Shown here in pieces: positions 1-18,545 of a stretch of 19,411 bases of DNA; the stretch's first letter is position 1, and every line of letters starts with the position of its first letter. The translations under genes and the position numbers were made by a program. The stretch covers positions 1 through 19,411 of the forward strand of contig JAJRSX010000038.1 of assembly GCA_024278555.1 (NCBI GenBank), read 5' to 3'. Source of the DNA: a bacterium (GTDB taxonomy: Bacteria; CG2-30-53-67; CG2-30-70-394). Below the pieces are notes generated by a model, which worked only from the letters and a program-made list of their open reading frames with translations, searched no databases and was not told the DNA's origin.

Positions 1-298
1 AGGCGCCCTCAGGGAGCCTTTCGGTCCCCTCCGAGGCCACGGTTGGGGTGGTCGAAACGGGCGGGGTAGGCATGTTTATGTCTGCATGAAATGTATCTAT
101 AGTCAATAAAAACATTGAGATATTTCCGCTGACCCTCTCCGTGTGCTGCCGTGGTTTCCGTGGCCCATTCCCTGCCGGGCCGCAGGGGATCCGGCGGCGA
201 TGCGATTGCCACCGCCGCCCTTCTCCACCGCGCCGTGGCCCCGTACGATCCTCGCCCCAACGGGCCGCCCACCGGCGGCGCAGCAAAAGGAGTGAGCA
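1..298. other. Gene-free region with AT-rich island upstream of the OsmC gene
   Basis: I see no convincing gene here. The open frames crossing it are GC-driven and have low-complexity Arg/Gly/Ala-rich translations with no family signature. Bases about 72-135 are strikingly AT-rich against the rest of the window, as expected of a promoter or regulatory region. A 6-bp hairpin (CCCTGC at 170-175, GCAGGG at 182-187) lies between the island and the OsmC start and could be part of a 5' leader. Confidence 0.5.
75..103 (+). promoter_or_regulatory. Weak sigma70-like promoter candidate
   Basis: TATAGT at 98-103 resembles a -10 box. It has TTTATG at 75-80 at a 17-base spacing, which matches the -35 consensus poorly. 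It lies in the AT-rich island about 200 bases before the OsmC-family start, which would leave a long leader. This is a pattern match only. Confidence 0.2.
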
Positions 299-1797: not shown

Positions 1798-1818
1798 TTC
1801 GTGAGTACCGCTCACGAA
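1798..1818. terminator. Perfect 8-bp hairpin over the pmbA stop codon
   Basis: TTCGTGAG (1798-1805) and CTCACGAA (1811-1818) are perfect complements around the loop TACCG. The pmbA stop codon (1814-1812 on the minus strand) lies inside the right arm. The symmetrical arms and convergent genes suggest a bidirectional terminator, though neither side has a T-run. Confidence 0.4.
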
Positions 1819-3152
1819 CCGGCAAGGGTCATCTCTTCGATGAGCACCGACGGGGAGCAGCAGGCGGAGTCGAAGCGCAGGTCGCTGCCCACCGCCACCA
1901 TCCGGCCGAAGATGTCGCGTAGGTTGGCGGCGAGGGTGACCTCGTGGATCGGAAAGGCGATCTCCCCCCCCTCGACCCAAAAGCCGGCGGCGCCGCGCGA
2001 GTAGTCGCCGGTGATCAGGTTCACCCCCTGGCCCATGAGGTCGGTGACCAACAGCCCGGTGTCCATCCGGCGCAGGAGCGTGGCGAGGTCGTCGTCACCG
2101 GGCCGCAGAAAGAGGTTGTGGGGGCCGCCGGCGTTGCCGGTGGTGGGGAGGTCGAGCTTGCGGCCGGCGTAGGTGTCGAGGAGGTAGCCGGCCACCACCC
2201 CGGCGTCGATCAGCGACCGGTCGCGGGTCGCCACCCCCTCGCCGTCAAAGGGGGAGGAGCCGAGCCCCGACATCCGGCGCCCCTCGTCGCGCACGGTGAC
2301 GAAGGGAGGAAAGAGGGTCTCGCCGATGGCGCCGGCGAGGAAGCTGGTGCGGCGATAGAGCGCGGTCCCCGAGAGTCCGCCGGCGAGGTGGCCGAGGAGG
2401 GTCGCGGCGACGTCGTGCTCGAAGCAGACCGGCGCCTTGCGGGTGGTGAGCTGGCGACCGCCCAGCCGCCGGGTGGTGCGCTCGCCGGCGATCCGACCGA
2501 CCGCCTCCGGGGGCTCCACCGCCGCCGGGTCGCGTGCCACCGACCCCCAGCCGTCACGCTCCTTTGCGCCATCCCCCTCGGCGACCACCACGCACCCCAC
2601 CGACTTGCGCGACGCCGGATAGCCCACCAGCAGGCCGAGCGAGTTGCCGAGGACCACGTCGCCGGTGTTGAGCGACACGGTCGCCCCCTCGGAGTTGGTG
2701 ATCCGCCGGTCCACCGCCATCGCCGCCGCCTCGCAGGCGGTCGCCTCGTCCAGGGCCGCCTGTGGGTCGAGCTGCACCGGAAAGGCGAGGGCAAGATCGT
2801 CCACCCGCTCCACCAGCGCCTCTCTCTCCGGCAGGCCGGCGGCCGGGTCGTCGTCGGCCAGGCGGGCCAGGGTGACCGCCTGGTGGGCGGTCTCGGCGAG
2901 GGCAGCGGATGACATGTCGGTGGTGGTACAGGAGGCGGTGCGCATCCCCGCCTCGCCCTTCACGTAGACGGTGAGGGAGATGGAGCGGCCCCGGCGGTGC
3001 TCGATCCGCTCGGCCTTCCCGAGACGGACGGTGACCGACAGGCCGCGGCCGCTCTGCGCCGCGGCCTGCGCCTGGTCGGCGCCGGCGTCGGCGGCGACGG
3101 CGAGGAGCTGCTCCACCGCCGCGGCGAGGGCGGCGTCGGGGGTCGGGCTCAT
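1812..3152 (-). CDS. pmbA: TldE/PmbA subunit of the TldD/E metalloprotease
   Basis: This 446-residue protein, the usual PmbA/TldE length, is the non-metal partner in the TldD/TldE heterodimer. In E. coli that protease matures microcin B17 and trims unfolded peptides and the CcdA antitoxin. Diagnostic segments are SSPFDGEGVATRD and the C-terminal MGQGVNLITGDYSRGAAGFW block followed by GGEIAFPIHEVTLAANL. No HEXXXH motif is present, as expected for this subunit. The ATG at 3152 overlaps the tldD stop by 4 bases (ATGA); the frame is open for 26 more codons, but that stretch lies within tldD coding sequence. The overlap points to coupled, equimolar synthesis. The protein is cytoplasmic. In E. coli the two genes are unlinked, so this adjacency is an informative arrangement. 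Confidence 0.95.
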   Translation of the reverse strand: MSPTPDAALAAAVEQLLAVAADAGADQAQAAAQSGRGLSVTVRLGKAERIEHRRGRSISLTVYVKGEAGMRTASCTTTDMSSAALAETAHQAVTLARLADDDPAAGLPEREALVERVDDLALAFPVQLDPQAALDEATACEAAAMAVDRRITNSEGATVSLNTGDVVLGNSLGLLVGYPASRKSVGCVVVAEGDGAKERDGWGSVARDPAAVEPPEAVGRIAGERTTRRLGGRQLTTRKAPVCFEHDVAATLLGHLAGGLSGTALYRRTSFLAGAIGETLFPPFVTVRDEGRRMSGLGSSPFDGEGVATRDRSLIDAGVVAGYLLDTYAGRKLDLPTTGNAGGPHNLFLRPGDDDLATLLRRMDTGLLVTDLMGQGVNLITGDYSRGAAGFWVEGGEIAFPIHEVTLAANLRDIFGRMVAVGSDLRFDSACCSPSVLIEEMTLAGS

Positions 3153-4585
3153 CCGGCGGTCCCCCCCACGGTGAGGGCGGAGAGCTTCACCGTCGGCAGC
3201 CCCACCCCCACCGGCACCGACTGGCCGCACTTGCCGCAGGTACCGATGCCGAGGTCGAGCGCCAGGTCGTTGCCCACCATGGTGACCTTGGTGAGGCAGT
3301 CGGGGCCGTCGCCGATCAGGGTCGCGTCGCGCACCGGCTCGGCGATCTTGCCGTCGCGGATCCGGTACGCCTCGGAGGCGGCGAAGACGAACTTGCCGGA
3401 GGTGATGTCCACCTGGCCGCCGGAGAACTGCACCGCGTAGAGGCCGTCCTTCACCGACGCGAGGACCTCTTCCGGGTCGGTCTCGCCGGGCCGCATGAAG
3501 GTGTTGGTCATCCGTGGGATCGGCAGGTGGGCGAAGGACTGGCGGCGACCGTTGCCGGTGGGGGCCTGGCCCATGAGGCGGCCGTTTTGGCGGTCCTGGA
3601 GGTAGGCGGCGAGGATGCCGTCGTCGATGAGCACCGTCTCCTGCGGCGGGCTCCCCTCGTCGTCCACGGTAAGGGAGCCGCGGCGGCCGGTGAGCGTGCC
3701 GTCGTCCACCACCGTCACCCCGGGGGCGGCGACCCGCTGGCCGAGGCGACCGGCAAAGGCCGAGGTCCCCTTGCGGTTGAAGTCACCCTCCAGGCCGTGG
3801 CCGATGGCCTCGTGCAGAAGAATCCCGGGCCAGCCCGGGCCGAGGACCACCTCCATGGTGCCGGCCGGCGCCGCCACCGCCTCCAGGTTGATGACCGCCT
3901 GGCGCGCCGCCGCGCGGGCGAGGGACTCCGGGTCGAGGTTGCCGGTGAAGAGGTCAAAGGGGCCGCGGCCACCGCCGCCGCTGCTGCCCCGGCCGCGCGC
4001 CTCACCGTCGCGTGCGACCACCGAGATCGACAGGCGGACCAGGGGCCGGCTGTCGGCGACCAGGTCGCCGTCGTGGGTCGCCACCACGACCACCTCGTGG
4101 CTCGCGGCAATGGTCGCCACCACCTGATCGACGCGCGGGTCCACGGCGCGGGCGGCCCGGTCGACCCGCTCCAGCAGGCGCACCTTGTCCGCGTCCGCGA
4201 GCGAACCGATCGGGTCATCCGCCGGGTAGAGGGGGGGGGCGGTGCGCCGGGTCAGGGCCACCGCGCCGCTCGCCCCGTGGCCGGCGATGGTGGAGGCGGT
4301 GCGTGCCGCCTCGCCGATCGTCGCGTTGCCGATCTCCTCGCCATAGGCAAAGCCGGTCGCCTCGCCGGCCACCGCCCGCACCCCGAAGCCGGAGGCGATC
4401 GCGTGGGAGCCGGAGCGCACCCGCCCCTCCTCCAGGTGGAAGGCCTGCTGGCGACTGTGCTCCAGGTAGAGGTCGGCGAGCTCCACCGACGGCCCGGCCG
4501 CCTCCGCCACCAGGGCGGCGAGGCGCCGGGCGTCGAGGCCGGCGGGGGCGAGGAGCAGCGCCTCGGCCAGGTCCATGGGGTCCAT
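3149..4585 (-). CDS. tldD: Zinc metalloprotease subunit TldD
   Basis: This is the catalytic subunit of the TldD/TldE protease, 478 residues from the chosen ATG (E. coli TldD is about 480). The metal-binding HEXXXH motif is plainly visible as HEAIGHGLEGDFNRKGTSAF. The C-terminal GTCGKCGQSVPVGVGLPTVK segment, which supplies a Cys metal ligand in TldD proteins, is intact. The frame continues upstream for 67 codons, but that Arg/Gly-rich stretch is not TldD-like and crosses a strong RNA hairpin. I therefore start at MDPMDLAEALLLAP, where family similarity begins. The Shine-Dalgarno is poor, and ATG 4576 three codons in is an alternative start. The gene is followed by overlapping pmbA. The closest upstream gene on the same strand is a chemoreceptor, 197 bases away. 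Confidence 0.95.
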   Translation of the reverse strand: MDPMDLAEALLLAPAGLDARRLAALVAEAAGPSVELADLYLEHSRQQAFHLEEGRVRSGSHAIASGFGVRAVAGEATGFAYGEEIGNATIGEAARTASTIAGHGASGAVALTRRTAPPLYPADDPIGSLADADKVRLLERVDRAARAVDPRVDQVVATIAASHEVVVVATHDGDLVADSRPLVRLSISVVARDGEARGRGSSGGGGRGPFDLFTGNLDPESLARAAARQAVINLEAVAAPAGTMEVVLGPGWPGILLHEAIGHGLEGDFNRKGTSAFAGRLGQRVAAPGVTVVDDGTLTGRRGSLTVDDEGSPPQETVLIDDGILAAYLQDRQNGRLMGQAPTGNGRRQSFAHLPIPRMTNTFMRPGETDPEEVLASVKDGLYAVQFSGGQVDITSGKFVFAASEAYRIRDGKIAEPVRDATLIGDGPDCLTKVTMVGNDLALDLGIGTCGKCGQSVPVGVGLPTVKLSALTVGGTAG

Positions 4586-4709
4586 GGCCGGTGAGTATCG
4601 GGTTCCTGTCCCGAGAAGGCCACGGCGATGCCGCCTTACCATCGCGGATCCGGAGCACACCGGTGGTTGGCCGAGGATACGTGTGGCGGCGACGCCCCGG
4701 GTGGAACAG

Positions 4710-4752
4710 CGACAGCCCGTCCACGATCGGGGACGGCCGGGCCCCGCTGTCG
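4710..4752 (-). ncRNA. Nested stem-loop between the chemoreceptor and tldD
   Basis: An outer 7-bp stem (CGACAGC 4710-4716 with GCTGTCG 4746-4752) is stacked directly on an inner 6-bp stem (CCGTCC 4717-4722 with GGACGG 4731-4736). A 9-base bulge (4737-4745) interrupts one side. It lies 31 bases past the chemoreceptor stop and about 125 bases before the tldD ATG. It could be the chemoreceptor terminator (no T-run follows), an mRNA stability element or a tldD leader. Calling it a structured RNA is inference from base pairing. Confidence 0.35.
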
Positions 4753-4782
4753 GAAAGAACGCCGAGGCGCCCCTCCGGGGGA

Positions 4783-6579
4783 TCACACAAGGGCCGCCAG
4801 ACGGGCCACCTCCGACTCCACCGACTGTGCCTGTTCGACGAGGGACTCGCTCGCCGCGGCCGACTCCTCGGCGACCGCGGCGCTGCGTTGGGTCACCTCA
4901 TCGATCTGGGTAACCCCGTGGTGGACGTGGGCGACGCCGCGGGTCTGCTCTTCGCTGGCGGAACGGATTTCGCCCATGATGGTGGCGATCCGTTCGATGG
5001 TCTCGACGATCTCCATGATCCCCTTCTCCGCCGACTGGGCGACGTTCTGCCCCTCCTCGGCGCGCCCCACCGACCCCTCGATGCGCTCGGAGATCTCCTT
5101 GGCCGCCTCTGCCGACCGGGTGGCCAGGGCGCGCACTTCGTCGGCGACCACCGCAAAGCCGCGACCGTGCTCGCCCGCCCGCGCAGCCTCCACCGCCGCG
5201 TTGAGCGCCAGGAGGTTGGTCTGAAAGGCGATTTCGTCGATCACCCGGATGATCCCGGCGATCTCCCTGGAGGCGGAGGCGATGCCGTCCATCGACCCGA
5301 CCATCGCCGCCATCGCGTCGCGCGCCATGGCGCTCGCCTCCTGAGCGGAACGCGCGAGGTCGTCTCCGGCCGCCACCCCCTCGGCATTGCGTGTCGCCAT
5401 GGTCGAGGTCTCTTCGAGCGCGGCGGCTACCTCCTCGACACTCGCCGCCTGGGTCATCGCCCCTTCGGCGAGTTGGTGCGATGAGGCGGTCATCTGGGCC
5501 GAAGTCTCGTTCAGTCTGTGGGTGCTGACCCGGAGGCCGTCGACCGCCTGCCGGATCACCCGACCGATCCCGCGACTCATCCAGGTACCGACAACCAGTC
5601 CCAGGAGGGTGGCAAGGACGAGGGCCGACCAGATGGTGAGATAGGCGGCCGTGGCCGTGTGCTCGGCATGTTCGGCGATGTCGTGAACCTCGTCATCGGT
5701 TGCCGCATCGATCCGCCCCATGGCCGCGGTGGCCGCGGCCGCCTGGATGTTGAACTCCTCCTGCGCCGCGTTGCGTCGCTTCACGACGTCGAAGAGGTGG
5801 GCCTGTTCGGCGAGATACTCCCTTGCCAAGGCCTCAACCCTACCGGCCATCTCCTCGTCTCCGAGGCCGGTAGCCAGGTTGCGCGCGAGGATCCGGTGGA
5901 TCCTGTCCGCCGCTCCCTCCACTACCTTGCGGGCATCCTCGTTCCCTTCCAGTACCTGATCTGTCGCGGCGATCACCTGCCCCGCCTCGATCGCCACCGC
6001 CATCGCCGTCTGCCCGGCGGCCCAGGTGTCGGAGAGGGTATGGAGCTGCCCGGAGCTCAGACGGGTCCCCGGCCGCATTTGCGGCAGAATAACCGTCTCC
6101 AGCAGGTCGTCCGCCAACGACTGATACTCATTCACCGCCTCCCCCCACTCCCCGGCGATATCGGCGAGGGAGCCGGACCGCTCGACAAAGTCGCTCTGCA
6201 GTGTGGTGAATTCGACCGCCGTATCGCGCAGCTTCGCCTGGGCCGCTGCAAAGGCGTCGAGGTCGGCGGTGGAGGCCAGGTTCGACTTCGCCAGCCGCGC
6301 CATCGACTCCTTCCCATGTCTCACCGCCTGCACAAACTGCACCTCGCCGTCCACCTCGCCCCGGGCCATCTTGCCGACGGCGATCACCTGCGCCTGGGTG
6401 CCGATGGTCGTCTCCATCGCCCCGCCTGCAGCCTCCCACGCCGTCTCCATCAGGTAGCCGATAGTGGAACGGAGGTGGCCGATCGCCACCACGCCGATCA
6501 CCCCGGCCACCAAACCGAGGAGGAGCACGGTACCAGTGGCTGCGAAGATGCGCCTCTTGATGGTCCAGATCATGGACAT
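4783..6579 (-). CDS. Methyl-accepting chemotaxis protein with helical periplasmic sensor
   Basis: This is a 598-residue transmembrane chemoreceptor. Membrane segments lie at about 13-34 and 312-333. The 277-residue periplasmic region between them is Ala/Glu-rich and looks wholly helical, in the size range of helical-bundle sensors such as HBM; that subtype is inferred. Only about 15 residues ([15 protein letters not shown]) separate TM2 from the helical adaptor, and I see no complete HAMP domain or its DL signature. The signalling tip [20 protein letters not shown] (448-467) and the following [18 protein letters not shown] are canonical. There is no C-terminal CheR-binding pentapeptide. A start at either of two ATGs (6579 or 6573) is possible; neither has a clear Shine-Dalgarno. 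It follows the larger chemoreceptor by 29 bases and is probably co-transcribed. The ligand is unknown. Confidence 0.93.
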
Positions 6580-6608
6580 TCACGGCGTCGTGCGCCGCGC
6601 CCGGTGCA

Positions 6609-8939
6609 CTAGAAGTCGACCCAGTCGTCGTCCTCGTTTGCCGAGGTCTCGGTCGCGACCGGAGCCGAAGGGGGTTCCGCCGGGGGCCCCGACACGGAAG
6701 CGAGGACCGCGCCTGCCGCCGGGACGGCCCCCGCCTCACGCCCCGCCACCTGGAACCTCCCCACCTCCGCTCGCATCCTCCGCGACTGGTCACTGAGGCC
6801 GTCGGCAGACGCCGCCACCTCCTCGACCAGGGCGGCGTTCTGTTGGGTCATGCCGTTCACCTGCGACAGGGTATCGGCCACGCCGTCGATCGACGCCGCC
6901 TGATCGTGGGCGGTCTCGGCGATCTCCCTGACGATCGCCGAGACCTCCCCGACCGCGGTGACGATCTCCTCGAGGCTCGTCCCGGAGGCGTTCACCAGCT
7001 CGGTCCCCGCCTCCACCTTGGAGACCGTGTCGTGGATCAACCCCTTGATCTCATCCGCCGCCTTGGCCGCGCGACGGGCGAGGTTTCTCACCTCCGCGGC
7101 GACCACCGCGAAGCCGCGCCCCTGCTCCCCGGCCCGTGCCGCCTCCACCGCCGCGTTGAGCGACAGGAGGTTGGTCTGGAAGGCGATCTCGTCGATCGCC
7201 TCGATGATGTCGCGGATCCGCCCCGACGCCTGCTCGATCTCGCCCATGGCGGAGACCGCCTGGTCGACCACCCGGCCGCCGCGCTCCGCCACCTCACAGG
7301 CGGTCGCCGCCAGGGTGTCGGCGCGGTTGGCGTCGTCAGCGCTCTGCTTCACCGCCCTGGCCATCTCCGCCATGGAGGAGGCGCTGCTCTCCAGCGACGC
7401 CGCCTGCTCCTCGGTACGGCTCGCCAGGTCCTGGTTGCCCGCGGCGATCTCGCCGGAGCTCAAGGCCACCTGGTCGGCGGCGGTGGCGATCGAGCTGATC
7501 GCCCGCTCCGACGCCTCCACCGCCCCGTTCACCGCCTCCTTGATGCGCGCGTGGTCACCGCGGTAGTCACCCTCCATCCGCACCGTGAGGTCGCCGTCGG
7601 CGACTTGGCTGAGGACCGTGGCCGCCTCGTTGATCGGCCCGGTCGCCGCGTCGAGGGTGTCGTTCATCCCCTGCACCAGGGCGCGGTAGCCGCCTGCGAA
7701 GGCGCTCGCGTCGCCGCGCACCGTGAGCTCGCCATCACGCGCCGCGGTGGTCAGACGGCCGGTCTCCTCCACCAGCCGCTCCAGGGTGTCAAAGAGGTCG
7801 GAACAGGCGGTGCCGAGGACGTCGTGCTCGGAATGGGGCGCGACCCGCGCCGAGAGGTCCCCCTGGGCGAGACCGCGGGCCGACGCCGCCGCCTCGCCGA
7901 GGTAACGGATGAGACCGCGGAAGGCGTCGGCGAGCTTGCCGAGCTCATCATTGGACCGGTGGCTCACCTCCTGGTCGATCTCCCCCTCACTGATCCGCCG
8001 CGCCGCCCCCACCACCTGCTCCAGGGGGGTGACCAGGCGGCGGCTGAAGCCGAGGGTGAAGAGGAGGCCGCCGGCGAGGCCGAGGAGGCCGAGAAGGACC
8101 GAGGTCCACGCCAGCCGCCGCACATCGGCCAACGCCGCCGCCCGCGGCATTACCACCACCGTCCGCCACTCCGGGCCCCCGGCGGGGCGGCCGGCGGCGG
8201 CGGCGAAGATGTAGGCGTCACTGGATCCGACCCCGGCCGGCGTCCCGCCCTCTGTGGCGACCCCGAGGCGGGGGGCGGCCGGTTCACCCACCGGCCACCC
8301 GTCCGGGTCGGTGGTCTGGAGGATCCGATCGGACGCGTCGGTGATCAGCACCCTCTCCTCGCCCGCCGGGTCGACCGTCTGGCTCAACCCCTGCCAGTCG
8401 AGGTGAATGACGAGAAAGCCGAGGGTCTCCTTGGCGTCCCAGCCGGCGGCCACCCGCACCACCAGGGGCACCACGCGGCGGCCCGGCTGCAGCGGATCCA
8501 CGGCCACCGGTGACACCCCGAGCCGACCGGAAACGATCGCGTCGGCCACCCACGGCAGCGTGTCCTGGACCCGCTTCCCCATCCACGCGCGGTCGGTGGC
8601 CGCCACGACGGTGCCATCGGGCATGGTGGCCGCGAGGTCGGCGATCTCCGGGTACTCCTCCTTCATCTGGCCGAGGAAGGTGGCGATCTGGCTGTCCGGG
8701 TCGCGATCCACCAGGAGCTGCATCAACTCCAGGGTCGACCACACCTGGGCGTTGCGCCGCACCGTCTCGACCCGCTCCACCAGCGCCGCGACCCGCTGCT
8801 GTGCCTCCCGTTCGACGCTCTTGCCGACGCGCTGGGTGACCTGCTGCCGCCCCTGGAGGAAGGTCACCGTGCCCGAGACGGCGATTGTTCCCGTGAGGAT
8901 GAGACCGAAGGTGAGAGGGATCTTCCAGCGCAGTTGCAT
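6609..8939 (-). CDS. Methyl-accepting chemotaxis protein with Cache-like sensor, several HAMP units and C-terminal pentapeptide
   Basis: This is a 776-residue chemoreceptor. TM1 is about 8-28 and TM2 about 277-299. The roughly 245-residue periplasmic region (MPDGTVVAATDRAWMGKRV, ITDASDRILQTTDPDGW) resembles a Cache/PAS-type small-molecule sensor. After TM2 come at least two and probably three HAMP-like units: RISEGEIDQEV about 316, LAQGDLSARV about 357, VADGDLTVRM about 446. The signalling tip [20 protein letters not shown] spans 582-601. A Pro/Ala linker leads to the final residues DWVDF, an exact match to the aromatic-x-x-aromatic CheR-docking pentapeptide known from Tar and Tsr. I start at MQLRWKIPL (weak GGTGAT upstream) rather than ten codons earlier, because this places the Arg/Lys pair just before TM1. 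It lies after a porin and a PstS-like gene, which may hint at the ligand. Confidence 0.94.
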   Translation of the reverse strand: MQLRWKIPLTFGLILTGTIAVSGTVTFLQGRQQVTQRVGKSVEREAQQRVAALVERVETVRRNAQVWSTLELMQLLVDRDPDSQIATFLGQMKEEYPEIADLAATMPDGTVVAATDRAWMGKRVQDTLPWVADAIVSGRLGVSPVAVDPLQPGRRVVPLVVRVAAGWDAKETLGFLVIHLDWQGLSQTVDPAGEERVLITDASDRILQTTDPDGWPVGEPAAPRLGVATEGGTPAGVGSSDAYIFAAAAGRPAGGPEWRTVVVMPRAAALADVRRLAWTSVLLGLLGLAGGLLFTLGFSRRLVTPLEQVVGAARRISEGEIDQEVSHRSNDELGKLADAFRGLIRYLGEAAASARGLAQGDLSARVAPHSEHDVLGTACSDLFDTLERLVEETGRLTTAARDGELTVRGDASAFAGGYRALVQGMNDTLDAATGPINEAATVLSQVADGDLTVRMEGDYRGDHARIKEAVNGAVEASERAISSIATAADQVALSSGEIAAGNQDLASRTEEQAASLESSASSMAEMARAVKQSADDANRADTLAATACEVAERGGRVVDQAVSAMGEIEQASGRIRDIIEAIDEIAFQTNLLSLNAAVEAARAGEQGRGFAVVAAEVRNLARRAAKAADEIKGLIHDTVSKVEAGTELVNASGTSLEEIVTAVGEVSAIVREIAETAHDQAASIDGVADTLSQVNGMTQQNAALVEEVAASADGLSDQSRRMRAEVGRFQVAGREAGAVPAAGAVLASVSGPPAEPPSAPVATETSANEDDDWVDF

Positions 8940-8971
8940 GGGATCACCATTGCGCCACATGGCGCGCAAGG

Positions 8972-10545: not shown

Positions 10546-10724
10546 GGGATTCTCCGGGGAAGGTGGGTAGTGATGGATAAACCATATCGGTGTTCCCTGA
10601 CCCACCATGAGCCGCGAGCGACATCGCGCACCCTGTGGAGGAGAGGCCGGTGGTCGACGCCACCACCACGCAACCGGGAGGGGGTGCGCTACATTCCATA
10701 CACACCCTCCTCACGAGATCGACC
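10546..10724. promoter_or_regulatory. Divergent intergenic region between porin and LigB-AMMECR1 genes
   Basis: This 179-base gap must carry the promoters of both flanking units. The 10570-10590 part (TGGATAAACCATATCGG) is locally AT-richer and could supply a -10 for the porin direction; TACATTCCATACAC at 10690-10703 could do so for the plus direction. Neither has a convincing -35. A small stem (GTGG/CCAC) lies near 10650. An in-frame GTG at 10635 could extend the plus-strand protein by 30 codons, but the sequence there is not family-like. Confidence 0.4.
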
Positions 10725-12065
10725 ATGGCCTCTCCGGTCGTAGTTGCCGCCCTCCTCCCCCACGCCCCCATCATCTGCCCGGCCGTAGCCGGACCGCGGG
10801 CGGAGGCGGTGGCGGCGACCACCGCCGCCTGTGCGGAGGCCGGAAGGGAGGTAGTCGCCGCCGCCCCCGACGTGGTGGTGACCACCGCCCCCCACGGCGC
10901 CCGCCACCCGACCGACCTCACCCTCCACACCGCCGACCGCCTGGCGGGCGATCTGGGCCGCTTCGGCGCACCGGAGGTCCGCGTCGACCTCCCCGGCGCG
11001 GTGGAGCTGGCCGAGGGAATCATCGAGGCGGGGATCGCCGGGATGGTGGTTCGCCCGCTGGACAGCGGCGGCCTGGAGTACTCCACCGTCGTCCCCCTCT
11101 CCTTTCTCTGCAGAGCCGGCTGGCGCGGCCCCACCCTGGTGGTGGGCCTCCCCTACCCGGGAGAGGGCGACCCCGCCGCCATCGGCGCGGCCGTTGCCGC
11201 CGCCGCCGGCCGCCTCGGCCTGCACATCGGGGTGATCGCCAGCGGGGACATGAGCCACCGCCTCACCGCCGATGCCCCGGCCGGCTTCGACCCGGACGGT
11301 GCGCGCTTCGACGCCAAGGTGACAGCCCTCCTGCGCGCCCACGATTTTCAGGCCCTCCGCCACCTCGACCCCGACCTCCTCGCCCGTGCCGGTGAGGACT
11401 GCCTCGACTCCCTCCTCTTCGCCGCCGGCTGCCTCGGCTTCGAGGCCCACGCGCCGCGCCTCCTCTCCTACGAGGGCCCCTTCGGCGTCGGCTACGGGGT
11501 GGCGATCCTGACCTCCCCGCCGGGCGGCCACCGTGGGGAGCCCTCTCTCCCCGAGCTCGCCCGCGACGCCATCCGCGCCTACGTGGCAGAGGGCCGGGTC
11601 TACACCCCGGACGTTGCCATGCCGGCCGAATGGCAGGAGCGGGCACCGGTCTTCGTCACCCTCCACACCCCGGCAGGCGAGCTGCGCGGCTGCATCGGCA
11701 GCCTGGAGCCGACCACCGCCAACGTCGCCAGCGAGACCGTCGACCGTGCGATGGCCGCCGCCACCGCCGACCCGCGCTTCGCCCCGGTACGGCCCGAGGA
11801 GGTGGAGGGGCTCGACGTGGAGGTCTCCATCCTCTCCCCCCTGGAGGCGGTCGACTCCGTCGCCGACCTCGACCCGGCCCGCTACGGGGTGGTGGTGGAG
11901 GCGGGGGGCCGCCGCGGCGTGCTCCTGCCGGCGATCCCCGGCATCGACGACGCCGAGGCCCAGGTGGCGATCGCCCGCCGCAAGGCGGGGCTGGGGCCGG
12001 ACACGCCGGTGCGCCTCTACCGCTTCACCGTGGACAAGATCGCCTCTCCCGGGAGGCAGCGGTGA
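10725..12065 (+). CDS. LigB/Memo-like domain fused to AMMECR1 (AmmeMemoRadiSam system protein)
   Basis: This 446-residue two-domain protein carries, at residues about 1-262, a class III extradiol-dioxygenase LigB/Memo-type fold: LLPHAPIICP with His13, TTAPHG with His57, and SGDMSH with His178 as probable metal or active-site residues. Residues about 273-446 form an AMMECR1 domain with the invariant LRGCIG at 320-325 in GELRGCIGSLEPT, and VSILSPLE further on. AMMECR1, Memo-like and radical SAM proteins co-occur in bacteria and archaea as the AmmeMemoRadiSam group; the reaction is not established to my knowledge. I start at MASPVVVAALLPHAP because LigB-like proteins begin just before the PHxP motif. 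The Shine-Dalgarno there is weak. It overlaps the radical SAM gene by 4 bases, so the two proteins probably act together. Confidence 0.9.
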   Translation: MASPVVVAALLPHAPIICPAVAGPRAEAVAATTAACAEAGREVVAAAPDVVVTTAPHGARHPTDLTLHTADRLAGDLGRFGAPEVRVDLPGAVELAEGIIEAGIAGMVVRPLDSGGLEYSTVVPLSFLCRAGWRGPTLVVGLPYPGEGDPAAIGAAVAAAAGRLGLHIGVIASGDMSHRLTADAPAGFDPDGARFDAKVTALLRAHDFQALRHLDPDLLARAGEDCLDSLLFAAGCLGFEAHAPRLLSYEGPFGVGYGVAILTSPPGGHRGEPSLPELARDAIRAYVAEGRVYTPDVAMPAEWQERAPVFVTLHTPAGELRGCIGSLEPTTANVASETVDRAMAAATADPRFAPVRPEEVEGLDVEVSILSPLEAVDSVADLDPARYGVVVEAGGRRGVLLPAIPGIDDAEAQVAIARRKAGLGPDTPVRLYRFTVDKIASPGRQR

Positions 12066-13144
12066 GCCACCCCGCCCGCTGGGGGAGCCGCCTCGCCGAC
12101 GGTCGCATCCGCTGTCTCCTCTGCCCGCGCGACTGCTGCCTCAAGGAGGGGCAGCGCGGCCACTGCTTCGTCCGCGCCAACGAGGGGGGCGAGCTGGTCC
12201 TCACCACCTACGGTCGCTCCTCCGGCTTCTGCGTCGACCCGATCGAGAAGAAACCCCTCAACCACTTTCACCCCGGCTCCGCGACGCTCTCCTTCGGCAC
12301 TGCCGGCTGCAACCTCGCCTGCCGCTTCTGCCAGAACTGGGACATCTCCAAGTCCCGCGACACCGACACCCTCGCCGCTGAGGCCACCCCGGAGGAGATC
12401 GCCGCCCGCGCCGCGGAGCTGAACTGCGGCTCGGTCGCCTTCACCTACAACGACCCGGTGATCTTCGCCGAGTACGCCATCGACACCGCCGAGGCGTGCC
12501 ACGCGCAGGGGATCGAGACGGTGGCGGTGACCGCCGGCTACATCCACCCGACCCCGCGGGCCGAGCTCTTCGCCCACATGGACGCGGCGAACGTCGATCT
12601 CAAGGGGTTTTCCGACGCCTTCTACCAGAAGCTCGCCCGCGGCCACCTGGAGCCGGTCCTCGACACCCTCCGCTACCTCGTCCACGAGACCGACTGCTGG
12701 GTCGAGATCACCACCCTGCTCATCCCCGGGTGGAACGACTCGGAGGCCGAGGTCCGCGCCGAGGCCGAGTGGATCCGCGACCAGCTCACCCCCACCGTGC
12801 CGCTGCACTTCACCGCCTTCCACCCGGCGTGGCGGATGCTCGACACCCCGGCCACGCCGCCCGCCACCGTGCGGCGGGCGCGGGAGATCGCCCGCGAGGT
12901 CGGCCTCGCCTTCGTCTACACCGGCAACATCCACGACCCCGAGGGGGGCACCACCTACTGCCCGGGCTGCAACAGCCCGCTCATCGAGCGCGACGGCTAC
13001 CAGCTCCTCGCCTACCGTCTCACCGACGGGCGATGCACCGCCTGCCACACCCCCCTCCCCGGCCGCCTCGACCCCACTCCCGGCCCCGGCCCCGGCCACC
13101 GGGGAGCGAGATGTATGGGCGTCCGCTTCGACCGGGCGGTGTAA
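12062..13144 (+). CDS. amrS: Radical SAM enzyme of the AmmeMemoRadiSam system
   Basis: This 360-residue protein starts at a GTG overlapping the previous stop (GTGA), with GGGAGG 4 bases upstream. The radical SAM CxxxCxxC cluster motif is at 83-90 (CNLACRFC, followed by QNW), binding a [4Fe-4S] cluster and S-adenosylmethionine. It resembles pyruvate formate-lyase activating enzymes. Extra cysteines lie before it (Cys18, Cys21, Cys25, Cys26, Cys35 in CLLCPRDCCLKEGQRGHC) and near the end (Cys300, Cys303, Cys325, Cys328 in CPGC and CTAC pairs), suggesting added metal sites. The core carries TAGYIHPTPRAELF, ANVDLKGF, and the C-terminal YTGNIHDPEGGTTYCPGC that typifies this branch. Coupling to the LigB-AMMECR1 gene supports a joint modification pathway; the substrate is unknown. 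The symbol is by family analogy. Confidence 0.92.
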   Translation: MSHPARWGSRLADGRIRCLLCPRDCCLKEGQRGHCFVRANEGGELVLTTYGRSSGFCVDPIEKKPLNHFHPGSATLSFGTAGCNLACRFCQNWDISKSRDTDTLAAEATPEEIAARAAELNCGSVAFTYNDPVIFAEYAIDTAEACHAQGIETVAVTAGYIHPTPRAELFAHMDAANVDLKGFSDAFYQKLARGHLEPVLDTLRYLVHETDCWVEITTLLIPGWNDSEAEVRAEAEWIRDQLTPTVPLHFTAFHPAWRMLDTPATPPATVRRAREIAREVGLAFVYTGNIHDPEGGTTYCPGCNSPLIERDGYQLLAYRLTDGRCTACHTPLPGRLDPTPGPGPGHRGARCMGVRFDRAV

Positions 13145-13473: not shown

Positions 13474-14310
13474 TCACCCCGCGGTGGTCGCCCCGGCGAC
13501 AACGAAGCCGGCGGCGACCGCCTCCACGTCGAGGAGGGAGACGATGTGCGAACCGTCACCGCTGTGGGCCACGGAGACGACCATGGGGTCGCCCGCCTCC
13601 TCGTCGGCGGCGATGTCGCCCTCGGTGGGGGCGGGGGTGAGCCACTCGACGCCGGTGACCTCATCCACCGCCACCGCGTAGGGACCGGAGGGGGCGTCGA
13701 CCACCACGGTGATGGTGCGGCACGTCTCCCGCAGGAGGCGCCGGAGGTCGGCGAACAGCTCGATCATGTGCGCCAGGGTGGTGTCGCGGGTCGTCCCGAT
13801 GAGCTCCTTCGCGCCGTCCAGGTTACCCTCGGTGGTTCGCCGGAGGCACTCGGCGGCGATCGCGTGGATCTGTTTGTGGGGGGCGTCGAACCGCTTCATG
13901 TGGTTGGCGAGGACGAGGTTGTCGGTAGAGAAGGTGTCGTACCATTTGCCGAAGGCGCACTTGTGCGGGTCGGTGGCGAGCTTGAACTCCTCCCCCTCGG
14001 TGACCGCCCGTTCCAGGGCGGTGAGCCAGTTGCGGTGGTCCTGTTCGCGCTGGTCGAGCATCTCGATCAACCCCTCTACCTCCGCCTCCGCCGAGGTCAG
14101 CCCGAGGCGGTGGCGCAGATCGACCACCGGGATCACCTTGCCGCGCAGGTTCATCACCCCACGCACGTGGTCCTCTACATGCGGCAGGTCGGTCACCGCG
14201 CCCATGGAGACCATCTCCCGGACCAGCCCGATGGGGAGGCCGAAGTAGCGATCCTCCACCCGGACAATAACCTGCTGGGTAGCCTCTTGCTCGGTGGTCG
14301 CGGTTGCCAT
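13474..14310 (-). CDS. CheW-like coupling protein with an inserted CZB zinc-binding domain
   Basis: This protein has 278 residues, far longer than CheW (about 150-170). Residues about 12-75 match the first CheW sub-barrel (VEDRYFGLPIGLVREMV, then GVMNLRGKVIPVVDLRHRLG). The second half of the barrel resumes at about 198 (TITVVVDAPSGPYAVAVDEV) and ends near 268. Between them, about 80-195, lies a CZB (chemoreceptor zinc-binding) helical domain: His92 (DHRNW), Cys118 in the signature CAFGKW, His145 and His149 (HKQIH). The Cys-His-His spacing of 27 and 4 equals that of the zinc site I recall from E. coli DgcZ. CZB domains bind zinc tightly and can sense zinc or hypochlorous acid. The ATG has a strong AGAGAGGAG upstream. 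It is the last gene of the che operon, 43 bases after cheB. A zinc- or redox-dependent array coupler is my inference. Confidence 0.9.
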   Translation of the reverse strand: MATATTEQEATQQVIVRVEDRYFGLPIGLVREMVSMGAVTDLPHVEDHVRGVMNLRGKVIPVVDLRHRLGLTSAEAEVEGLIEMLDQREQDHRNWLTALERAVTEGEEFKLATDPHKCAFGKWYDTFSTDNLVLANHMKRFDAPHKQIHAIAAECLRRTTEGNLDGAKELIGTTRDTTLAHMIELFADLRRLLRETCRTITVVVDAPSGPYAVAVDEVTGVEWLTPAPTEGDIAADEEAGDPMVVSVAHSGDGSHIVSLLDVEAVAAGFVVAGATTAG

Positions 14311-14353: not shown

Positions 14354-15881
<1,528 letters not shown>

Positions 15882-15931: not shown

Positions 15932-16342
15932 TCAGAAATCTCCCCCCTCATCGGCCACCGCCATGGCCATCCCCAGGTACGGGGCGATGACCGGCGCCAG
16001 CTCCTCCGGGCGAAACGGCTTCTGGATGAAGCCGACCACCCCGAGGGAGAGGACCTTGTCGATCACCTCGCGGCTCCCCTCGGTGGAGATGACCACGCAC
16101 GGGATGGAACACAGCAGGGGGTCGTTTTTCACCGCCTCGATGAGCTCGATGCCGTTCATCTCCGGCATGTTGATGTCGGTGATGATCAGGCGCGGGGTGG
16201 TGTCGGCGAGGAGCTCCAGGGCATGGCGGCCGTGGTGCGCCTCCAGGAAGTCGTCGATGGCGAAGCCGGCCTGCTTGACCACCCGCCGCACCACTTTGCG
16301 GACCGTGGCGGAGTCGTCGACGATGAGGATGGTGGTGTCCAT
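15932..16342 (-). CDS. cheY: CheY-like single-domain response regulator
   Basis: This 136-residue protein is a receiver domain with no output domain. The conserved residues are all present: Asp9/Asp10 (ILIVDDS), phosphoacceptor Asp56 (LIITDINMP), Ser86/Thr87 (VVISTEG) and Lys108 (IQKPF). When phosphorylated by CheA, CheY binds the flagellar switch. Position 107 and its surroundings (GFIQKPF) fit a motility or adaptation-type regulator, and the short C-terminal tail is ordinary. The start has a strong AAGGGAG. The gene follows the HDOD gene by 18 bases and precedes the CheX-like phosphatase. Flagellar target versus internal phosphate sink cannot be told apart from sequence. Confidence 0.9.
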   Translation of the reverse strand: MDTTILIVDDSATVRKVVRRVVKQAGFAIDDFLEAHHGRHALELLADTTPRLIITDINMPEMNGIELIEAVKNDPLLCSIPCVVISTEGSREVIDKVLSLGVVGFIQKPFRPEELAPVIAPYLGMAMAVADEGGDF

Positions 16343-16360: not shown

Positions 16361-17209
16361 CTAGGGGGTGATGCTCTCGCTCGCGAGGCTGTCGATCTCC
16401 ACCAAACGCATGGCGAGGTCGACGGAGAGGTCGCCGACCTCGTTGGAGGAGATGCCGAGGTTCGCCAGGAGGTGGTCGGGGACCTGGTAGGCGAGGCCGT
16501 CGGCGCCGCAACCGATCCCCTGCATGAGGCAGAGGAGGTCGCAGAGCTGGACGATGCGCGCGACGGTGGGGTCGGCGGCGCGCTCGGGGTGGTGGTGGCA
16601 GGCGATCGCCTCCACCAGGGGGGCGGGGAAGGCCCAGCTCTCGGCGAGCCAGCCGCCGGCGGTGGCGTGGTCGATGCCGAAGGCGAGCTGCTCCGCCTCG
16701 GGGAAGGGGATGTCGTCGTCGATCAGCTCGTGGAGCGCCTCGCCGCGCTCCGCCACCCATGCGTCGAGGGCGATCTTGCCGATGTCCTGGAGGAGGCAGG
16801 CGGAGTAGACGAGGCCGGGATTGGCGATCGTGAGCCGGCCGACCACCAGCTCGCTGGCGACTGCCGCCGCCAGGCCGTGGCGGAAGAGGTCACACCGCTC
16901 CAGCCGGTAGCCGTCGCCGCCGCCCTGGAGGGTGTCGCCGGCGCAGGCGGTGACCACCAGCTTGGTGAGCGCCCGGCGGCCGAGCAGGGCGATGGCGCGC
17001 TCGACCGAGTCGATGGTGTGGCGCACCCCCATGAGGGGCGAGTTGGCCACCCGCAGGCAGGCGGCGTCGAGGAGCGGATCCTGGCGGATCAGGGAGGCGA
17101 GGCTGTCGACGGTCGTGTCATCGCGATCGACCGCTCCGAGGACGCGCACCGCCACCTCGGGCAGTGGGTGGATCTTGTCGAAGATGGGGGTCAGCTCATC
17201 GCGGGTCAT
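16361..17209 (-). CDS. HDOD domain protein
   Basis: This 282-residue protein is made almost wholly of the HDOD fold, a helical relative of HD phosphohydrolases found in signalling proteins and common inside chemotaxis operons. N-terminal features IHPLPEVAVRVLGAVD, SLIRQDPLLDAACLRVANSP and HTIDSVERAIALLGRRAL are typical of HDOD. The former HD dyad position reads LLQDIGKIAL (Gln141-Asp142 where HD enzymes have His-Asp), so the metal site is probably lost and the role is likely regulatory binding rather than catalysis. The CHHHPER segment (204-210) is the equivalent of a later HD motif. The ATG has AGGAGGGAG upstream and overlaps the cheD stop by 4 bases. Its function in this operon is unknown. 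Confidence 0.9.
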   Translation of the reverse strand: MTRDELTPIFDKIHPLPEVAVRVLGAVDRDDTTVDSLASLIRQDPLLDAACLRVANSPLMGVRHTIDSVERAIALLGRRALTKLVVTACAGDTLQGGGDGYRLERCDLFRHGLAAAVASELVVGRLTIANPGLVYSACLLQDIGKIALDAWVAERGEALHELIDDDIPFPEAEQLAFGIDHATAGGWLAESWAFPAPLVEAIACHHHPERAADPTVARIVQLCDLLCLMQGIGCGADGLAYQVPDHLLANLGISSNEVGDLSVDLAMRLVEIDSLASESITP

Positions 17210-17712
17210 GTCAGCTCCCTCCTGGGCTCTCCGGGTGAGGTGACAAAGAGGCGGCCGGTGGCCATCTCCAGCTCCACGGTGCGGCTCACCGCACCCCCGA
17301 CATCCTCGGCGGTGAGGGTGACGCCGTTCTTCCACATCAGCTTGCGGGCGAGGAGGAAGTTGCGCTTGCCGACGTTGAAGAGACCGGCGCCGTCGATCAG
17401 CGACGCGCCGCCGGCGATCTTGACGATGGTGCGCTGCTTCACCGCCCCGAGGGCATAGGCCGCCTTGAAGAGGCGGGGGATCCCCAGGTCGCCGAAGATC
17501 AGGGGGGTCGCCGCCGCCTTCTCCGGGTGCTCGCGCCCCTCCGGGAGCATGTAGTGCAGGAGGCCGCCCACGCGGGCGACGGGATCGAAGATGGCCACGC
17601 CGATGCACGAGCCGAGGCCGTGGGTGATGATCGAGGCGGCGGGGTCGGCGGTGACCTCCATCGCTCCGATGCCGACGACGAGCCGGTTGGCGGTTGCGGT
17701 GGCGAGGGTCAT
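17206..17712 (-). CDS. cheD: CheD, chemoreceptor glutamine deamidase
   Basis: This 168-residue protein hydrolyses specific receptor glutamines to glutamates, making them methylatable, and is a known partner of CheC-type phosphatases. The family catalytic residues are present at the right spacing: Thr30 and Cys36 in THGLGSC, and His53 in GGLLHYMLP. KIAGGASLIDG and FNVGKRNFLLARKLM also match. The start overlaps the cheR stop by 4 bases and its own stop overlaps the HDOD start by 4 bases, so the three genes are translationally coupled. The CheX-like protein of the same operon is a possible but unproven partner. Confidence 0.96.
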   Translation of the reverse strand: MTLATATANRLVVGIGAMEVTADPAASIITHGLGSCIGVAIFDPVARVGGLLHYMLPEGREHPEKAAATPLIFGDLGIPRLFKAAYALGAVKQRTIVKIAGGASLIDGAGLFNVGKRNFLLARKLMWKNGVTLTAEDVGGAVSRTVELEMATGRLFVTSPGEPRRELT

Positions 17713-18545
17713 CGGGCGGCCTCCGCCGGCCGGCGGTGGATCCCCGGCCCCTCGGTGCAGTATGGGTGGTGTACCCGAGTAAGGGATTCGGAGAGGCCGA
17801 CAAAGAGGTAGCCGTCCGGCTCGAGGAGGGTGGCGAAGCGGTTGACCAGCCGCTCCTGGGTGGGGGCGTCGAAGTAGATCATCACGTTGCGGCAGAAGAT
17901 CGCCTGCACCGGGCCGCGCAGGGGCCAGTGGTCGGAGATGAGGTTGAGGCGGCGGAAGACCAACCGCTCGCGGACCACCGGCGCCACCACCACCCGGCCG
18001 TCACCGGCGGGGAGGAAGAGGGCGCGGTAGGCGGGGTCGAGGTCGGCCACCTGCTTCGTCGCATAGGTGGCGGCTTGTGCCGTGGCCAGCGCCCGGGTGG
18101 AGATGTCGGTGGCGAGGATGCGGACGTCCCACCCCTCGGCGCGCGGCAGCAGCGTCTCCATGAGGATGGCGAGGGTGTACGGCTCCTCCCCGGTGGCCGC
18201 GGCGGCACACCAGATGCGCACCGCCCGGTTGCCGGTGGCGGCGGCGCGCCGCTTCCAGGCGGGAACCAGGCGGTCGCGGAGGAAGTCGAAGTGGGCCGGC
18301 TCGCGGAAGAAGCGGGTGTAGTTGGTGGTCAGGCAGTCGAGGAGGTGGACCCACTCCGCCTCACCCTCGGGGCCGTCGAGGAGGTGAAGGTACGGCTCGA
18401 AGCCGTCGAGGCCGAGGGCGCGCAGCCGCTTCATCACCCGCCCCTGGACCATCTCCCGCTTCTCCGGCGGCAGACTGATCCCGGCACGCCCGTAGGCGCC
18501 GGCACGGATCTGCTCGAAGGCGCGGGTGGAGAGGGTGGCGGCCAT
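17709..18545 (-). CDS. cheR: CheR, receptor glutamate methyltransferase
   Basis: This 278-residue SAM-dependent methyltransferase modifies receptor glutamates. An N-terminal helical domain (about 1-75) precedes the catalytic domain. Family motifs are present: TTNYTRFFRE (73-82), WCAAAATGEEPYTLAI (112-127; the SAM-binding loop reads CAAAATGEEP), ILATDIS (143-149), IFCRNVMIYFD (216-226) and GYLFVGLSESL (245-255). It is followed by cheD with a 4-base overlap. The ATG lies 105 bases after the upstream chemoreceptor and has no clear Shine-Dalgarno; GTG and ATG alternatives are not better. Whether it has the extended beta-subdomain of pentapeptide-binding CheRs I cannot decide by eye. Confidence 0.96.
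   Translation of the reverse strand: MAATLSTRAFEQIRAGAYGRAGISLPPEKREMVQGRVMKRLRALGLDGFEPYLHLLDGPEGEAEWVHLLDCLTTNYTRFFREPAHFDFLRDRLVPAWKRRAAATGNRAVRIWCAAAATGEEPYTLAILMETLLPRAEGWDVRILATDISTRALATAQAATYATKQVADLDPAYRALFLPAGDGRVVVAPVVRERLVFRRLNLISDHWPLRGPVQAIFCRNVMIYFDAPTQERLVNRFATLLEPDGYLFVGLSESLTRVHHPYCTEGPGIHRRPAEAAR

Follow-up and report, generated by a model that had tools for sequence, protein, structure and literature searches.

Introduction

CheW is usually seen as passive glue. Its combination with a zinc-binding CZB domain has already been published, and so has the proposal that cells could sense through it. According to the accessible text of a 2021 mBio study, CheW-CZB is one of seven CZB subgroups, makes up 1.4% of 10,140 CZB sequences and is most abundant in Clostridia; the residue after the zinc cysteine is poorly conserved or alanine in the CheW-CZB, periplasmic and CZB-only groups (PMC8262984). 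In 2023, CheW proteins with fused sensors, CZB named among them, were proposed to act as a sensory hub or input (PMC10653840). CZB domains elsewhere bind zinc through three histidines and one cysteine and respond to HOCl or to zinc depletion (PMC8262984, accessible text; PMC13370339; PMC12871147).

Here we describe a CheW-CZB protein of 278 residues encoded in a 19,411-nucleotide stretch of bacterial DNA, referred to below as the window. Like the published subgroup, it carries CheW and CZB in one protein, and its motif CAFGKW has alanine at the second position. Its CZB lies inside the CheW fold. The text we found on the subgroup is silent on position, and in the published literature, figures, supplements and subscription papers aside, we found no statement that the CZB sits within CheW.

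The comparison extends to other described systems. The CZB of DgcZ (PDB 3t9o) is a five-helix zinc-binding domain with the same four ligands, but it is N-terminal to a GGDEF enzyme, whereas the CZB studied here is tied to CheW at both ends. The soluble chemoreceptors TlpD and McpA link a CZB to a chemotaxis signal, as the window protein would by its presumed role; their CZB, however, is C-terminal on a receptor rather than part of the coupling protein. CheWS (CheW-CheRlike) of Treponema denticola, which goes with the "hub" model, also fuses CheW to a ligand-binding input domain, but its CheR-like SAM-binding domain is C-terminal, not inserted (PMC10653840). CheV is likewise a CheW with an added regulatory domain, in its case a C-terminal receiver with no zinc domain; Pfam found no receiver (Response_reg) in the 278-residue protein.

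Results

A CZB domain interrupts the CheW fold

The reading frame of cheW-CZB is open and stop-free throughout (Table 1). The Pfam CheW profile matches the protein in two stretches, at 95.7 bits against a cut-off of 23.5, and the CZB profile (PF13682) matches between them at 51.4 bits against a cut-off of 29.4. Because the second CheW stretch resumes the profile where the first one ends, the profile is complete and cut at a single point. A profile search against the PDB placed the flanks on residues 14-77 and 82-153 of E. coli CheW and the insert on DgcZ (3t9o, E 1e-4). The join is therefore exact, the CZB insert standing for about four loop residues, 78-81 of E. coli CheW.

An AlphaFold2 model built from a 31-sequence alignment (pLDDT 91.4, pTM 0.83) shows a single CheW fold interrupted by a CZB bundle. 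Its ten main strands, five on each side of the insert, make up one CheW beta fold of two subdomains, which the insert joins between the strand-helix unit 58-68 and strand 200-206. Residues 8-270 align with CheW chains at Z 16.8 and an rmsd of 2.1-2.4 Å over 136-137 residues; for CheW and CheA-P5 chains together, the rmsd is 2.0-2.4 Å over 122-137 residues of the model. This alignment extends into the C-terminal 80 or so residues, which the original prediction had singled out as the part that might leave the barrel incomplete, and on this point the model does not refute the reading.

The insert is modeled as a five-helix bundle (74-105, 119-126, 132-139, 142-160 and 164-196), and both outer helices run straight into CheW. 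It superposes on the DgcZ CZB with Z 13.0 and an rmsd of 2.3 Å over 116 aligned residues; because unrelated four-helix bundles reach Z of about 12.6, this fold match is weak by itself and needs the sequence match beside it. The same layout was modeled for a divergent member from Anaerotignum, with 27% identity in the alignment (CheW, Z 18.8, rmsd 1.7; CZB, Z 11.4). The claimed order of a CheW half, a complete CZB and another CheW half is thus borne out by Pfam, by the PDB profile search and by the model, confirming that a CZB domain is inserted within the CheW fold.

Table 1. Positions of the cheW-CZB gene, its domains and predicted ligands, the neighboring che genes, and the triple-CheW loci (window coordinates unless a locus is named)
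Feature	Residues	Position	Strand	Basis
cheW-CZB ORF, 278 aa, ATG start at 14310		13474..14310	-	ORF list, Pfam, AF2 model
CheW first half (Pfam profile 3-69)	14-80	14071..14271	-	Pfam, model, alignment, PDB profile
CheW second half (Pfam profile 68-134)		13513..13719	-	Pfam, model, PDB profile
CZB core, between the CheW halves	92-155	13846..14037	-	Pfam
Full helical insert	74-196	13723-14091	-	AF2 model
CheW first-half strands	11-18, 21-26, 30-35, 49-55, 58-64			AF2 model
CheW second-half strands	200-206, 209-215, 217-224, 244-249, 256-260			AF2 model
His92, predicted zinc ligand (DgcZ H22)	92	14035..14037	-	Alignment
Cys118 in CAFGKW, predicted zinc ligand/redox Cys (DgcZ C52)	118	13957..13959	-	Alignment
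His145, predicted zinc ligand (DgcZ H79)	145	13876..13878	-	Alignment
His149, predicted zinc ligand (DgcZ H83)	149	13864..13866	-	Alignment
cheB (receiver + methylesterase), immediately upstream of cheW-CZB		14354..15388	-	Pfam
cheX phosphatase		15414..15881	-	Pfam
cheY-like receiver		15932..16342	-	Pfam
HDOD protein		16361..17200	-	Pfam
cheD		17206..17712	-	Pfam
cheR		17709..18545	-	Pfam
MCP signaling domain, gene cut by contig end		18651..19411	-	Pfam; continues on contig C39
Triple-CheW CZB loci		L160:480-2423; L161; L162:561-2519; L163		

The predicted zinc ligands are invariant

The four residues proposed from the sequence as a CZB ligand set, His92, Cys118, His145 and His149, each align with a ligand of E. 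coli DgcZ. All four are invariant in the 31 aligned members (the window protein and 30 relatives), where the other invariant positions include G51, W95 and G121. Our genome scan used short peptides, and HKCAFGKW and FDAPHKQI cover C118 and H145, not H92 or H149; the invariance of the first two is therefore partly selected. The full set is also present in 20 of 20 further members, including four triple-CheW proteins, that were found by family or whole-protein searches independent of CZB motif strings. Given retention in 31 of 31 and 20 of 20 proteins, the pattern is not due to chance.

Conservation in the CheW part is less even. V36, E38, G57 and R62 of E. coli CheW, which we take to be conserved contact residues for receptors and CheA, correspond to V30, E32, G51 and R56 of the window protein. 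Across the family, the G57-equivalent is kept in 31 of 31 members and the R62-equivalent in 29 of 31, while the E38-equivalent is gone in most. Mean identity is 38% for the CZB, with search-motif columns left out, but only 31% for one CheW half and 23% for the other, so the CZB is the better conserved part. The CheW core of CheW-CZB proteins has a mean identity of 26% versus 42% for plain CheW, in samples that were chosen differently.

The internal arrangement is widespread

Scanning 84,980 species genomes with the window protein identified 31 loci that share its internal arrangement, one of which (L062) ends at a contig edge before the second CheW half. This search for CZB-split CheW, which had been suggested as a way to view phyletic spread, thus yielded 31 relatives, spread over 11 named phyla: Thermodesulfobacteriota, Acidobacteriota, Raymondbacteria, Bdellovibrionota, Nitrospinota, Planctomycetota, Bacillota, Ignavibacteriota, Omnitrophota, Krumholzibacteria and Pseudomonadota. 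The original prediction had correctly stated that CheW-CZB combinations had been noted before, as the CZB subgroup in the accessible text of PMC8262984 attests, and had doubted whether the internal arrangement was common. That doubt is now answered, as the arrangement is widespread, with one conserved site in at least 11 named phyla.

Genome samples gave the same layout. In an even sample of the class of Anaerotignum, CZB occurs in 45 of 391 genomes, and the six CheW-CZB proteins found among 30 loci of this sample, the Anaerotignum one included, are all internal. Of 395 sampled Desulfobacterota genomes, 13 match the single-CheW form over a long stretch, and the 12 of these that were inspected as loci are all internal. 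An end-to-end fusion of CheW and CZB was seen at none of the 30 loci of the 391-genome sample and nowhere else in our searches, including genome samples drawn without the CZB motif. A tblastn search of plasmids returned plain CheW and CZB receptors only and no CheW-CZB.

Several divergent members are matched by Pfam in the first CheW half alone, yet profiles built from the family recover the other half downstream of the CZB. Because Pfam often misses that second half, databases display a simple end-to-end fusion, a view of the class that the internal layout corrects. For the same reason, the published class is probably this internal arrangement seen as "CheW then CZB." The window protein belongs to this widespread, already named class; its phylum is small and sparsely sampled, and its gene belongs to a che operon.

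A CheA dimerization domain was found in 29 of 30 genomes with CheW-CZB, whereas any CheW-like match was found in about half of a family-diverse genome sample (Fisher p 1e-7, a rough value, as the markers differ). One Magnetococcales genome carries two tandem cheW-CZB genes (L061:6909-8789), and in a Magnetococcales genome a receptor with a C-terminal CZB (L063:13472-16222) lies a few kilobases from cheW-CZB. Many receptors of Planctomycetota, Bacteroidota and Desulfobacterota (L078-L108) bear one to three tandem N-terminal, probably periplasmic, CZB domains.

Origin of CheW-CZB and the triple-CheW proteins

Every protein we found with both CheW and CZB has the internal arrangement, and the single-CheW ones, all but one, fall in one CZB clade. 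CheW-borne CZBs form one clade on the CZB tree (support 99/96). On a wider tree, 47 of 48 group together (99/98), the 48th being a very long branch of unsure placement. Together with the conserved insertion point, this clade points to one insertion event that later spread widely.

The nearest relatives of the window protein on the CZB tree come from other phyla. Among eight genomes of the window phylum, the congener and three others lack CZB, two carry CZB-GGDEF proteins, one encodes a receptor whose CZB is C-terminal, and there is no second CheW-CZB copy. Given relatives in other phyla and a congener without the gene, it is plausible that cheW-CZB reached the window lineage by transfer; other lineages may have lost it. 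Its absence from the congener and other phylum members also indicates that the protein is not essential to the pathway.

Four Desulfobacterota genomes encode proteins of about 645 residues (641-653 aa) in which CheW is repeated three times and the middle repeat contains a CZB, placed at the loop used in the single-CheW form and with all four ligands intact. The middle core clusters with its own protein's first repeat (97/92) and the CZB with receptor CZBs (96/92), which suggests a second insertion. In AU tests of one versus two insertions, the trees lean to two, but one insertion is not rejected (p = 0.26 and 0.15). On these trees, the CZB of the triple-CheW proteins may have entered this loop independently.

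A broader reading would combine these observations: the published class would be one insertion kept across at least 11 phyla, making CheW itself a zinc/redox input of arrays, and a second CZB would have entered the same loop independently in the triple-CheW middle repeat. We offer this only tentatively and think the odds somewhat against it. If true, this CheW loop would offer allosteric input a privileged route to the CheA/CheW ring.

The window gene closes a che operon

The end of the window shares a 137-base exact overlap with contig C39, with no other full-length match, and C39 carries plain cheW and cheA upstream of the MCP gene (Pfam). Joining the two gives the operon cheA, cheW, mcp, cheR, cheD, HDOD, cheY, cheX, cheB, cheW-CZB. 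The cheW-CZB gene is therefore the last gene of a complete che operon, in which plain CheW is encoded as well. The genome further encodes FlhA of the flagellar export apparatus, 10 MCP signaling-domain matches and CheW domains of several CheA/CheW proteins; no other CZB protein was found in its 211 contigs. No sigma-70-type promoter was found near cheW-CZB, and one terminator-like site, against 0.7 expected, is unconvincing. With CheX as the query, no intact match turned up in other phylum members; the congener gave a single weak, stop-interrupted one.

Most relatives have the cheW-CZB gene away from che genes. The exceptions are L059, beside plain cheW/flgN; L074 and L055, with an MCP neighbor; and L058, in a cheR-mcp-cheW cluster.

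Proposed function and alternatives

We propose, with a probability of roughly 0.6, that CheW-CZB is an auxiliary CheW subunit of the array with a built-in zinc/redox sensor that tunes CheA coupling. The CheW part would dock in the CheA-P5/CheW ring and on receptor tips, beside or instead of plain CheW, and the CZB would bind cytosolic Zn(II). Oxidation of Cys118, chelation or a fall in free zinc could cost the domain its zinc. The helices that lead into CheW might then shift in order or register, altering the fit of CheW in the ring and, through it, CheA activity or cooperativity. In this way, the internal zinc/redox state could tune the whole array without a dedicated CZB receptor. In favor of this proposal are the domain order and fold, the invariant ligands, the retained G57- and R62-equivalents, the CheA domain in 29 of 30 genomes, the full che operon in a genome with FlhA, and the lack of any other CZB protein there. 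The original prediction had zinc or oxidants act at the CheA-receptor junction, which would agree with the anatomy; its wording that this happens independent of any receptor goes too far, since a CheW depends on receptors and CheA to work.

Related proteins provide precedents for single steps. HOCl releases zinc from CZB, and in modeling of DgcZ, zinc loss alters the dynamics of the alpha1/alpha5 termini joined to the regulated domain (PMC8262984, accessible text). McpA mediates zinc-depletion taxis (PMC13370339). None of the papers we found reports zinc binding, array incorporation or an effect on CheA measured for any CheW-CZB. Loss of the E38-equivalent and the fast divergence of the CheW core suggest that docking is perhaps weakened or altered in some members. 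With the G57- and R62-equivalents kept, this pattern is in keeping with an auxiliary subunit that accompanies plain CheW and does not replace it.

The domain might instead be mainly structural, a scaffold in which a permanent, fold-stabilizing zinc positions or dimerizes CheW in the array without sensing. The subfemtomolar zinc affinity reported for DgcZ (PMC8262984, accessible text) and the packing of its CZB domains as a homodimer (PMC12871147) would suit such a role. However, the CZBs of DgcZ, TlpD and McpA are zinc- or oxidant-responsive regulators, and the redox cysteine is invariant in CheW-CZB members, so we judge a mainly structural role unlikely. Less likely still is that the protein titrates receptors or CheA outside the array according to its zinc state, or serves a non-taxis output in an operon with HDOD, CheX and CheD. 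The fast-evolving CheW core, the orphan location of the gene in most genomes and the E38-equivalent missing from most members could be read that way, whereas the window gene belongs to a complete che operon that includes MCP, CheA and plain CheW, and its genome encodes flagellar FlhA.

A misjoining of adjacent cheW and CZB genes by assembly or gene calling would be conceivable in a genome fragmented into 211 contigs. Nevertheless, the frame is stop-free, and the same join occurs at the same residue in 31 independent genomes, among them a complete isolate chromosome, that of Anaerotignum sp. MB30-C6 (L067, 3.1 Mb). Recurrence across genomes refutes the artefact, to which we assign a negligible chance. 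The array subunit with a built-in sensor is the reading we prefer. A zinc/oxidant sensor built into a loop of CheW, and joined to it by both output helices, would offer a direct test of whether CheW conformation can gate CheA; its interest is modest and would be greater should allosteric signals turn out to enter through that loop.

Other genes in the window

Two further tandem chemoreceptor genes (4783-8969, minus strand) are parted from the che operon by opposite-strand genes. On the plus strand, a LigB/MEMO-like domain fused to AMMECR1 is followed by a radical SAM gene (10635-13144), the AmmeMemoRadiSam set. A TldD/PmbA pair occupies 1812-4786 on the minus strand; its mechanical starts overlap by about 80 bases, and one start probably lies further in. 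A PIN-domain toxin gene and a Phd/YefM-type antitoxin gene, overlapping by 4 bases, are found at 776-1443 on the minus strand.
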